Shown here: positions 24,450-34,790 of the stretch, in pieces
How the letters are laid out: each line of letters begins with the position of its first letter
Numbering within the stretch: position 1 is the stretch's first letter
NCBI GenBank assembly: GCA_947449695.1
Contig: CANFST010000032.1
Coordinates: forward strand, 1 to 34,790
Length of the DNA: 34,790 nucleotides
Reading direction: 5' to 3'
DNA from: Chitinophagales bacterium
GTDB taxonomy: Bacteria > Bacteroidota > Bacteroidia > Chitinophagales > CAIODY01
Notes under the pieces: model-generated
Database searches by the model: none
Told to the model about the DNA's origin: nothing
What the model saw: the letters and a program-made list of their open reading frames with translations, nothing else
Translations under genes and position numbers: made by a program

Positions 24450-25466
24450 CTATAAAATGTTTACTTCTCGTTCTAATTCTACATCAAATTTGTGTTTTAC
24501 ACTTTGCAAAATTTGTTCTGATAAATCAAAGATTTCTGCTCCGGTTGCACCACCATAATTCACAATTACCAAAGCTTGATGCTGATGCACACCGCAATTA
24601 CCAATAGATTTCCCCTTCCATTTACATTGCTCAATTAACCAACCAGCAGCTAATTTTATATTTCCGTTTGAAAGTGAATAATGAGAAATTTCAGGAAATC
24701 TTTTTTGTAATTCTTCAAATTTTCGAAGACTGATTTCTGGGTTTTTAAAAAAACTTCCTGCATTACCTAGTAAATCAGGATTAGGTAACTTAGAACTGCG
24801 TATATTTACTATTGCTTTTGAAATGACCTGAATACTTAAATCTTTAATATTCATTCTATCCAATTCTTGTTCAATGGCGCCATAAGAAGTTTTGAAGTGT
24901 GGCGTTTTATTTAACTTAAAGGTAACTGACGTGATTACAAATTGATTTTTGTATTTATTTTTAAAAACACTGTCTCGGTAACCAAACTCACAATCACTTG
25001 AATTAAATTGTATGACTTTTTTATCAGCAACTGAATAAGCCTCAAGTGAATGGAATACATCTTTTAATTCTACCCCATAAGCACCAATGTTTTGAATTGG
25101 TGCAGCCCCAACGCAACCTGGGATGAGTGATAAATTTTCAATACCCGCCCAATTGTTTTCAATGCAAAATAAAACCAATTGATGCCAGCCAACTCCAGCC
25201 GAAGCTTTTAAATAGACGTGCTTTTCATCTTCGTTTGTTTTTTCAATTCCCAATAATTCATTTTTGATAACTAAACCATCGAAGTTTTTAGTAAATAAGA
25301 TATTACTCCCTCCACCCACAATTAATTTATCAGCATTTGTAAATTCATTTTGGCTAAGTAAATGGGTTAACTCTTGGATTGTACTAATTTTGCTGAACCA
25401 TCTTGCGCTGCAATCAATTTTGAATGTATTAAATGGGAATAACGAAAAATTATTTTCAATTGTCAT
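24450..25466 (-). CDS. murB: UDP-N-acetylenolpyruvoylglucosamine reductase MurB
   Basis: A 338-residue FAD enzyme that reduces the enolpyruvyl group of UDP-GlcNAc to form UDP-MurNAc in peptidoglycan synthesis. I start it at 25466 (MTIENNFSLFPFNTF) and not six codons earlier. FAD-binding motifs are KLIVGGGSNILF and SLIPGCVGAAPIQNIGAYG. FGYRDSVFK carries the catalytic-region Tyr/Arg, and GNAGSFFKNP carries the proton-donor Ser. The long type I form without large gaps is seen. It is separate from any dcw cluster. Confidence 0.95.
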   Translation of the reverse strand: MTIENNFSLFPFNTFKIDCSARWFSKISTIQELTHLLSQNEFTNADKLIVGGGSNILFTKNFDGLVIKNELLGIEKTNEDEKHVYLKASAGVGWHQLVLFCIENNWAGIENLSLIPGCVGAAPIQNIGAYGVELKDVFHSLEAYSVADKKVIQFNSSDCEFGYRDSVFKNKYKNQFVITSVTFKLNKTPHFKTSYGAIEQELDRMNIKDLSIQVISKAIVNIRSSKLPNPDLLGNAGSFFKNPEISLRKFEELQKRFPEISHYSLSNGNIKLAAGWLIEQCKWKGKSIGNCGVHQHQALVIVNYGGATGAEIFDLSEQILQSVKHKFDVELEREVNIL

Positions 25467-25481
25467 AAATCCTAAAAAGAG

Positions 25482-25489
25482 CAAATGTA
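25482..25489 (-). promoter_or_regulatory. TACATTTG promoter box of murB
   Basis: Minus-strand TACATTTG, 15 bases upstream of the preferred murB start. Its position inside the longer alternative coding start supports beginning the protein at 25466. Confidence 0.4.
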
Positions 25490-32384: not shown

Positions 32385-33086
32385 TTACAGCAATTGTATT
32401 AATTCTCTTAAGGATTTTATTTCCATTGTTACGGGCACATGATGTTCATATTCTAAAGTGTTGAATAAAACCCTGTCCATGCCTGCATTTAAAGCGCCTT
32501 GCATATCTGCAAATGGATTATCGCCAATCATCAAACTATTGTTGGCATTAGCTCCGCTTCGCTGAAATGCCACATCGAAAATTTTCTTTTCAGGTTTGTT
32601 AGCTCCCGATTCTTCACTTGTGATTATTTCTTTGAAATACTTATCCAATCCGCAATTGGCCAGCTTTTTATATTGCACTTCCACAAATCCGTTGGTGATA
32701 ATGTGCAACTGATATTTTTGATGAATATGTTGAATTAAATCCATCGCACCATCAAACAATAATGTTTGAGTAGGCAGTATTTTTAAATATTCATCCGATA
32801 GTTGCTTTGCTAATTCAAAATCGTGAATGTCAAATTCCTGTAACGTAAAAAGAAAACGATTCACTCTTACTTCGGCTCTTGAAATCAAGCCTTTTTCTAG
32901 TTGTTCCCACAAAGTTCTATTGTGATAACTATAATGTTTTTTGAAAAGTTCTTTGTCAATATTTTTATCTGTGAAATGAAAGTTGTCATAAATCTGAAAC
33001 ATGGTTTGAGCCGAGTTGGCTTCAAAATCCCACAGTGTATGGTCTAGGTCGAAAAAAAGGTGTTCGTATTTTTCTTTGTTTAGCAT
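32385..33086 (-). CDS. YjjG-family HAD hydrolase (pyrimidine 5'-nucleotidase)
   Basis: I place the start at 33086, directly before MLNKEKYEHLFFDLDHTLWD; a longer frame to 33185 would overlap the upstream gene and add 33 unlike residues. The 233-residue protein has the HAD motifs in order: FDLDHTLWD (nucleophile Asp and Asp+2), IITNG, the Lys of NKPEKKIF, and MIGDNPFADMQGA. The helical cap and overall pattern fit the YjjG/YfnB noncanonical pyrimidine nucleotidase group, which removes abnormal nucleotides; substrate is inferred. It is 25 bases downstream of the TIR-MurD gene and could be co-transcribed with it. Confidence 0.87.
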   Translation of the reverse strand: MLNKEKYEHLFFDLDHTLWDFEANSAQTMFQIYDNFHFTDKNIDKELFKKHYSYHNRTLWEQLEKGLISRAEVRVNRFLFTLQEFDIHDFELAKQLSDEYLKILPTQTLLFDGAMDLIQHIHQKYQLHIITNGFVEVQYKKLANCGLDKYFKEIITSEESGANKPEKKIFDVAFQRSGANANNSLMIGDNPFADMQGALNAGMDRVLFNTLEYEHHVPVTMEIKSLRELIQLL

Positions 33087-33111
33087 TTTCAAAAGTAGGA
33101 AAAGAAATTCT

Positions 33112-34305
33112 CTATAATTTTTTAACTTCAATTTTAAACGCATTGCCTCTTTCAACGTAGTTGCTAAACAAATCAAAGCTAGCACATGCTGGAGAAAGAA
33201 GCACTAAATCACCTTCTTTAGATATTCTTTTTGCTTCTCTTACAGCTTCTTTCATATCAGTAAAGTTTTTTATTTTCGGATATTCATGTTTAAAGTAAGT
33301 TTGAATTTTTTTGTTGTCGATACCAAGTGTAATTATGCCCTTAACTTTTTGCTTAACTAAATCCTTCAAAACTGAATAATCATTTCCCTTGTCTAATCCT
33401 CCTGCAATCCAAATAATTGGTTGCGCAATACTTTCAAGAGCATACCAAGTTGAATTTATGTTTGTTGCTTTACTGTCATTAATATAATTAACTCCATTTA
33501 TTTGAGCGACAAATTCCATACGATGTTCTAATGAATTAAAATCAGATAAAGACTCTTTTATAATTTCATTTCGAACATTTATTTTTTTAGCTGAAAATAC
33601 ACCTTGGTCTTTTAAAACTTCATTCGATAATAGCTTTAGGAGTTTGTCGCTAATATTATTAGGGATTTCCAATTCTAATTTAATACTACCTTCTTCAATC
33701 CTATTGATTTTGAGTTCTGACTTTGGAATTTCTAAAAGAGAAGAAATTGCATTCAAAAATTTATTCTTCCTGTTCTCATCGAATGCTTCGTAATTACCCC
33801 TTAAACTAACTTCAATAGAGATTTTTTTTTGAATTTTTTTATTCATTTTCATTTCTTCTAATCCTGAATTTAAATTATTATTTGTTGAAATTGCAGTTGG
33901 TATTTGTTTCAAAGATTTCTTATGAAGATTTTCAAGTCTTAGCCATTTTTTATTTTTTAAAAAATAATTGCTTTTAGTAAATTCAGTATTCGCTTTTGGC
34001 AATAGAATAGGAATTACGAGTTTACTATTATCCTCATTTTCATTCACTAAGGCTCTTGATATTTCTTCTTCAAACCATTTTTTAGGTGTATGTTCACCGA
34101 TGAAAATAATATAATGTTTTGATGACATCATTCCTTGAGCCATTGCGGTTTGGAAATTTTCTCCAACAGCAATGTTCCATTTGTCAAACCAAACAGAAAT
34201 TTTATTTTCTTTCAAATATTTGGCAACAACTTCAACTGATGAAGAGTCTCTGTCGTCATGACTTAAAAAAACATCAAACCTAGCTTTTTTTAGATTTTTT
34301 CTCAT
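33112..34305 (-). CDS. TIR domain fused to MurD C-terminal ligase domain
   Basis: A 397-residue protein with three parts. Residues 8-140 are a TIR domain: FDVFLSHDDRD, SVWFDKWNIAVGEN, IIFIGEHTP and KWFEEEISRAL, where Glu81, four residues after Trp77, is the likely NADase glutamate. Residues 163-240 are a small alpha/beta domain (EVSLRGNYEAFDE, RIEEGSIKLELEIP) like adaptor modules of bacterial NACHT and TIR proteins. Residues about 243-397 match the MurD C-terminal domain: ESLSDFNSLEHRMEFV, NDSKATN, AGGLDKGNDYS, LLSPACASFDLF. MurD's N-terminal and P-loop domains are absent, so it is not a ligase by itself. Likely D-Glu contacts (Thr281, Lys306, Ser376, Tyr383) remain. Sensor, decoy, or chance fusion. 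Confidence 0.85.
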   Translation of the reverse strand: MRKNLKKARFDVFLSHDDRDSSSVEVVAKYLKENKISVWFDKWNIAVGENFQTAMAQGMMSSKHYIIFIGEHTPKKWFEEEISRALVNENEDNSKLVIPILLPKANTEFTKSNYFLKNKKWLRLENLHKKSLKQIPTAISTNNNLNSGLEEMKMNKKIQKKISIEVSLRGNYEAFDENRKNKFLNAISSLLEIPKSELKINRIEEGSIKLELEIPNNISDKLLKLLSNEVLKDQGVFSAKKINVRNEIIKESLSDFNSLEHRMEFVAQINGVNYINDSKATNINSTWYALESIAQPIIWIAGGLDKGNDYSVLKDLVKQKVKGIITLGIDNKKIQTYFKHEYPKIKNFTDMKEAVREAKRISKEGDLVLLSPACASFDLFSNYVERGNAFKIEVKKL

Positions 34306-34349
34306 TTAGTATTTTGAATTGAAAATATTAATTTACTGACTTATGTAGT

Positions 34350-34357
34350 CAAATGTA
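34350..34357 (-). promoter_or_regulatory. TACATTTG promoter box of the TIR-MurD gene
   Basis: Minus-strand TACATTTG, 45 bases upstream of the fusion gene's ATG, in the 121-base divergent gap with the peptidase gene. It suggests the fusion gene has its own promoter and is expressed. No clear -33 partner. Confidence 0.4.
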
Positions 34358-34426
34358 ATCAGCAATATTTTGATTTTCATTTTCTTCACCACACTTTTCT
34401 TACATTCGCTTTCTAATTTTTTCACA

Positions 34427-34790
34427 ATGCAAAAATATTTTTCGCTGCTCATCGGCAGTTTCATTATTTCATCGTGTATGAACAATAAAAACATCGAACA
34501 CAAACCCATTGCGGTTACTTATCCAGCCACTGAAAAAGGAAATGTGGTGGATGATTATTTCGGAACTAAAATCGCTGAACCTTATCGTTGGTTGGAATAC
34601 GACACAGCTGAAAATGTAAAGAATTGGGTGAACGAAGAAAATAAATGCACTGAAAATTATTTATCGCAAGTTCCTTTCCGTAGCAAGATTCATCAGCGTT
34701 TGGAAGAAATCTGGAACTATCCTAAATTTTCTTCGCCATTCAAAAAGGGTGATTATTTTTTCTTTTATAAAAATGATGGTTTGCAAAATC
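34427..34790 (+). CDS. Prolyl oligopeptidase (S9 family) lipoprotein, N-terminal part
   Basis: The frame from ATG 34427 stays open to the window end (121 codons). A lipoprotein signal (MQKYFSLLIGSFIISSC, Cys17) precedes the N-terminal segment typical of S9A prolyl oligopeptidases: VVDDYFGTKIAEPYRWLEYD (D-P-Y-R-W-L-E type), VKNWVNEENKCTENYL, then KGDYFFFYKNDGLQN entering the beta-propeller. The catalytic domain is outside the window. It is divergent from the TIR-MurD gene. Confidence 0.9.
   Translation, partial: MQKYFSLLIGSFIISSCMNNKNIEHKPIAVTYPATEKGNVVDDYFGTKIAEPYRWLEYDTAENVKNWVNEENKCTENYLSQVPFRSKIHQRLEEIWNYPKFSSPFKKGDYFFFYKNDGLQN

Follow-up and report, generated by a model that had tools for sequence, protein, structure and literature searches.

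Organization of the locus

The window, by which we mean the whole analysed stretch of 34,790 nucleotides, stems from a Bacteroidota-type bacterium. Towards its end, a HAD hydrolase gene and a truncated S9 prolyl oligopeptidase gene (5' part) enclose an intact gene coding for a protein of 397 residues (Table 1). A Pfam scan of this single ORF identified, in this order and all above the curated cut-offs, the domains TIR_2, TRADD-like_N (residues 178-236), and Mur_ligase_C (residues 261-374). The borders of these domains are exact, and the internal join coincides with one of them and keeps the reading frame. A first-pass annotation, made from the letters alone, had reported one uninterrupted frame exactly at this position, consisting of a TIR domain with an intact catalytic glutamate, an adaptor-like domain, and the C-terminal domain of the cell-wall ligase MurD without the UDP-binding and the P-loop domain; the results given below confirm that this fusion within a single gene is real. 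The full-length AF2 model reached a pTM of 0.42, and a Foldseek search with it was dominated by MurD and silent on the arrangement of the domains. The linker between TIR and TRADD-N is predicted to be disordered, as judged from its low pLDDT values.

Table 1. Features of the fusion gene and its surroundings. Positions refer to the window, residue numbers to the fusion protein.
Feature	Position	Strand	Evidence
HAD hydrolase, conserved neighbour	32385..33089	-	95% identical in G002; Pfam HAD_2
Insert holding only the fusion gene	33100..34383	.	Homology of congener flanks stops at both edges
TIR-TRADD-N-MurD-C fusion gene, complete, 397 aa	33112..34305	-	ORF list; Pfam; NCBIfam
MurD C-terminal (glutamate-ligase) domain, complete, residues 238-397	33115..33594	-	Pfam, NCBIfam, residue alignment
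MurD-part segment 323-367, diverged beyond any compared true MurD	33205..33339	-	64% changed vs 31-56% in 26 control MurDs
TRADD-N-like RRM-fold adaptor, about residues 159-237	33595..33831	-	PF20694; L015 alignment; AF2 topology; uS motif (PMC8195603)
Low-confidence linker TIR/TRADD-N, about residues 105-160	33826..33993	-	pLDDT mostly <50
TIR domain, residues 12-126	33925..34272	-	PF13676, E 3.4e-20 (Pfam scan); AbTIR match in PDB
Glu81 codon, predicted catalytic Glu of TIR NADase	34063..34065	-	Alignment to 16 TIR relatives and AbTIR
S9 prolyl oligopeptidase, 5' part, conserved neighbour, cut by contig end	34427..34790	+	97% identical to G002

The TIR domain

No other gene of the genome matches TIR_2. 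In structure-based alignments, which comprised trimmed fragments, Glu81 falls into the column of the conserved catalytic glutamate, as seen both for the TIR relatives and for the solved structures of AbTIR and BtTIR. These two single-protein bacterial TIR NADases are the best solved relatives of this part; they have the same fold and the same catalytic glutamate, but their TIR domains are joined to regions other than TRADD-N and MurD-C. With the TIR fold and the glutamate in place, the domain is predicted to cleave NAD+. An assignment to the Thoeris system was rejected: the ThsB_TIR profile gave 15.9 bits, which is below its cut-off of 21.2, and the neighbours of the fusion gene are the HAD hydrolase and the S9 peptidase rather than a ThsA gene.

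A TRADD-N domain in the middle of the protein

The adaptor-like domain could be identified as TRADD-N, as PF20694 (TRADD-like_N) matched with 24.6 bits in the protein scan (cut-off 23.7) and with 27.7 bits in the genome scan. In the AF2 model, which was computed from a two-sequence alignment, residues 150-245 form with moderate confidence (mean pLDDT 68) the succession strand-helix-strand-strand-helix-strand; this beta-alpha-beta-beta-alpha-beta order is the RRM-like order of TRADD-N. Foldseek matches of the middle domain were weak, none having an E-value below 0.001; several were RRM or ferredoxin-like, and the human TRADD-N structure 1f3v occurred at rank 29 with a weak E-value of 0.07. At the beta2-beta3 turn, where a tiny residue followed by serine (uS motif) is conserved in TRADD-N (PMC8195603), the fusion possesses Gly206-Ser207. 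Profile match, RRM-like fold, GS motif, and the position following an effector and preceding a C-terminal domain of another type all indicate membership in this family.

According to the survey of Kaur, Iyer, Burroughs, and Aravind (2021; PMC8195603), TRADD-N is a bridge between an N-terminal effector, TIR being among these, and a C-terminal sensor; it was proposed to keep the flanking domains inactive until a signal comes, and a role in immunity or cell death was predicted for the whole bacterial family. The C-terminal partners listed there are pentapeptide, TPR, HEAT, STAND, caspase, PAS, GUN4, bDLD3, and HTH; Mur ligases are absent from the text of the survey (PMC8195603). The fusion has the plan of the bacterial TRADD-N conflict proteins (effector, TRADD-N, other C-terminal domain), their GS motif, and their sporadic distribution, but its C-terminal partner, the glutamate-ligase domain of MurD, is unlike the listed ones (PMC8195603), and the fusion gene lacks an adjacent STAND or caspase partner. 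Thus, MurD-C is new as a TRADD-N partner with respect to the published list, whereas the TRADD-N effector plan itself was already known. The location of MurD-C on the C-terminal side of TRADD-N agrees with the sensor position of the published plan (PMC8195603); one of the two models of the first-pass annotation had proposed the domain as a decoy or sensor.

Outside the fusion, TRADD-N was matched once in 299 genomes of the order, namely in an EAD11-TRADD-N-pentapeptide protein (locus L015 of genome G288, 1123-2583), which scored just under the Pfam cut-off. It shares the middle domain and the GS motif with the fusion, but possesses the adaptor EAD11 in place of TIR and pentapeptide repeats in place of MurD-C. 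In 395 genomes of the phylum, no TRADD-N match besides the fusion gene was found.

The MurD part: retained residues and uneven divergence

Mur_ligase_C was matched with an E-value of 2e-15. Positions 283-440 of the NCBIfam murD model, which has 441 positions, correspond to residues 238-395 (E 1e-55), which confirms that the C-terminal domain is complete; as the model was matched only from position 283, it also confirms the absence of the UDP-binding domain 1 and the P-loop domain 2. Due to these two missing domains, the match stays below the whole-protein cut-off of the model. Thr281, Lys306, Ser376, and Tyr383 are equivalent to Thr321, Lys348, Ser415, and Phe422 of E. coli MurD, and by this alignment the list of D-Glu residues proposed beforehand is correct. 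In addition, His261, Arg262, Asp277, and Lys279 are kept (His301, Arg302, Asp317, and Lys319 in E. coli MurD). We take all of these residues to have the roles in D-Glu and nucleotide binding that are established for MurD. In comparison with this enzyme (UDP-N-acetylmuramoyl-L-alanine:D-glutamate ligase), the fusion retains the whole of domain 3 with the D-Glu site and the other ligand positions, but it lacks domains 1 and 2, and its segment 323-367 is atypical. Without the P-loop and the UDP-binding domain, it cannot act as a ligase.

The MurD part differs from the consensus of the family's MurDs at 54 of 152 sites. Of 38 columns without variation among 26 MurDs from other families, only two are affected by these changes (hypergeometric p 1e-6), and one of the two reflects a peculiarity of the family, as the fusion agrees there with the other MurDs. 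Among the columns invariant in all MurDs, one out of 35 is lost in the fusion, which is as few as in working MurDs of like divergence. The changes are unevenly distributed: 19% of the sites are altered in residues 246-292 and 64% in residues 323-367, giving a ratio of 3.4, compared to 0.8-2.1 in 26 true MurDs, where the two segments were picked after the pattern had been seen and the comparison comprises one fusion sequence. Judged from these sequences, the uneven divergence suggests that constraint shifted after the domain had left MurD and that the pocket was kept; as the segments were chosen post hoc and the sequence is a single one, this reading is suggestive and not a proof. Part of the constraint on MurD-C may predate the fusion.

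Origin of the MurD part

In a tree of 31 MurD C-domains, which was based on the columns of the MurD part and from which two other long branches were left out, the fusion clusters with the six MurDs of its own family (support 97/89), and its branch is long (0.89 changes per site). A position as sister to the genus alone was not rejected (AU p 0.38); due to the long branches, the exact position is unsure. The search for an intact murD recommended by the first-pass annotation was successful: a complete copy is situated beside ftsW on a different contig of this genome. When compared to this gene, 11 of 32 fourfold sites of the MurD part agree, which means that synonymous sites are saturated and that the MurD part is consequently no recent copy. 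The strong conservation of residues 246-292 raised the question of gene conversion by the host murD, which was rejected because agreement in this segment is limited to 4 of 12 fourfold sites. Scoring the best first-look candidates in 299 genomes of the order gave no other genome with a second MurD-C at an E-value of 1e-10. The window also contains a complete murB gene (24450-25484), located between a malic enzyme and an OmpA-family protein.

The genomic slot

On the HAD side, homology to the congeners ends at 33099 (G002) or 33107 (G001), and on the peptidase side homology to G001 ends at 34384; hence, a 1.28-kb insert carries just the fusion gene. In the closest congener, G002, the HAD and the S9 genes are direct neighbours and the slot is empty. 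In congener G001, the slot (L019, 395-1431) is occupied by two small HTH genes of the Cro/C1-type and a small lipoprotein-like gene, which identifies it as a site of gene turnover. The fusion gene is accessory cargo in this variable slot, and there are no defence genes among its neighbours. The GC3 values of the TIR, TRADD-N, and MurD parts are 0.21, 0.24, and 0.19; those of the listed host genes range from 0.21 to 0.38, with most neighbours at 0.26-0.38, 3 of 16 near 0.21-0.22, and the genome's own murD at 0.32. Due to this uniformity across the three parts, the joins seem to have existed before the gene reached the slot.

These findings bear on two less favourable explanations. According to the second model of the first-pass annotation, a redundant copy of murD at this place received a TIR gene by insertion. 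The descent of the MurD part from the host family would fit, but no remnant of an N-terminal murD part exists upstream, the slot of the congeners is empty or contains other genes and never a second murD, no other genome among the 299 of the order had a second MurD-C at an E-value of 1e-10 when the best candidates were scored, and all three parts have the same low GC3. Taken together with the saturated synonymous sites, these observations speak against a recent event that involved a local copy of murD, and we regard this model as highly improbable.

We consider it even less credible that the assembly artificially joined two sequences. The genome is a draft of 99 contigs with an estimated contamination of 4%, and 485 bp separate the fusion gene from a contig end at which the assembly is interrupted by strain variation. 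However, both flanks are natural neighbours in the congeners, such that an artefact would need several exact joins, including one that preserves the reading frame just where two domains meet; moreover, the composition is uniform across the joins. The contig end itself (34508-34790) and positions 13251-13533 of contig C70, which belongs to the same genome (G000), are 95.4% identical over 283 bp of the same S9 gene, and this overlap of contig ends points to co-existing strains in the sample.

Search for further examples

The first-pass annotation had suggested searching databases for the same combination of TIR and MurD-C, and none of our searches gave a second copy; the TIR-TRADD-N-MurD-C architecture is known from one example. 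A pattern scan of 84,980 species genomes and of viral contigs, which requires near-exact matches of eight residues and would miss distant homologues, found no close relative of the TIR and TRADD-N parts or of the MurD part. Plasmids contained only true MurDs and TIRs, with no record covering 80% of the query; phages had unrelated TIR genes and no copy of the fusion architecture; and in the phylum and the class (395 genomes each), the matches were confined to TIR.

A single example, which is missing from both congeners, would fit a chance chimera without function, i.e. a TIR-TRADD-N gene that took up a murD tail by recombination and whose decay is still to come. On the other hand, the open frame and the key residues are intact despite the saturation of synonymous sites relative to the host murD, the domain borders are exact, and the site pattern is unlike that of true MurDs. 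The arguments based on the frame, the residues, and the borders would be weakened if the tail had been captured late, from a MurD lineage that is not sampled. On balance, we regard a chimera of this kind as unlikely.

Proposed function: a gated TIR effector

The intact gene with its TIR domain, TRADD-N domain, and MurD tail most likely represents a new type of trigger for a known kind of immune protein. The explanation that we prefer, with a probability of roughly 40%, is a single-gene immune-type effector whose TIR domain is gated through TRADD-N by a captured MurD-C sensor; it is the best reading because of the effector-switch-sensor plan, the intact sites, and the location in an accessory slot, and it has become more specific by the identification of the middle domain as TRADD-N. 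The TIR domain would be a dormant NAD+-consuming enzyme, and TRADD-N would act as a switch or bridge keeping it inactive. MurD-C, in which the D-Glu and nucleotide pocket of MurD is preserved, would be the captured sensor. Altered binding at this pocket or domain, be it of a cell-wall precursor, a nucleotide, or a partner, might be caused, for instance, by a phage or a toxin disturbing peptidoglycan synthesis. It would reconfigure TRADD-N, allowing the TIR domains to assemble and to deplete NAD+, and the cell would be stopped or killed. The further-reaching idea that part of the cell's own MurD serves to monitor the synthesis of wall precursors, or attacks on it, and that the cell kills itself upon disturbance is tentative. 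Several points count against the preferred reading: isolated domain 3 of MurD may bind D-Glu or nucleotide too weakly for sensing, part of the constraint on this domain may be older than the fusion, defence genes are absent from the neighbourhood, and the searches gave a single example, from which conservation of the architecture cannot be judged.

The MurD domain could alternatively be an integrated decoy, mimicking the host MurD as the target of a protein with which a phage or a rival bacterium attacks peptidoglycan synthesis; binding of this protein would trigger TIR. MurD-C occupies the C-terminal sensor position also required here, its origin from the host family is as expected for a decoy of a host enzyme, and one of its segments evolves fast. 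However, the ligand pocket was kept while much else changed, and a narrow literature search gave no phage protein targeting MurD; we consider a decoy rather unlikely. As the pocket and not the whole surface is retained, sensing of a ligand or nucleotide is somewhat favoured over a pure protein decoy. Quite unlikely, in our opinion, is a guard or targeting function, in which MurD-C would dock on the other domains of MurD, on a Mur complex, or on a Mur partner, and a disturbance would free TIR: a conserved domain 3 from the enzyme of the host's own family would suit this purpose, but segment 323-367 is strongly changed.

Enzymes that make wall precursors are targets of several phage lysis proteins, and an immune sensor monitoring this pathway is not known to us. 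If the preferred reading of a gated effector is true, the link from a TIR effector via TRADD-N to a MurD domain would provide a direct and testable case of a sensor for wall synthesis, and the variable C-terminal slot of TRADD-N proteins could take up domains of housekeeping enzymes as sensors or decoys.

Just upstream of the fusion gene, at positions 34330-34352, a short inverted repeat, TGACT-N5-AGTCA, was observed, which could be an operator.
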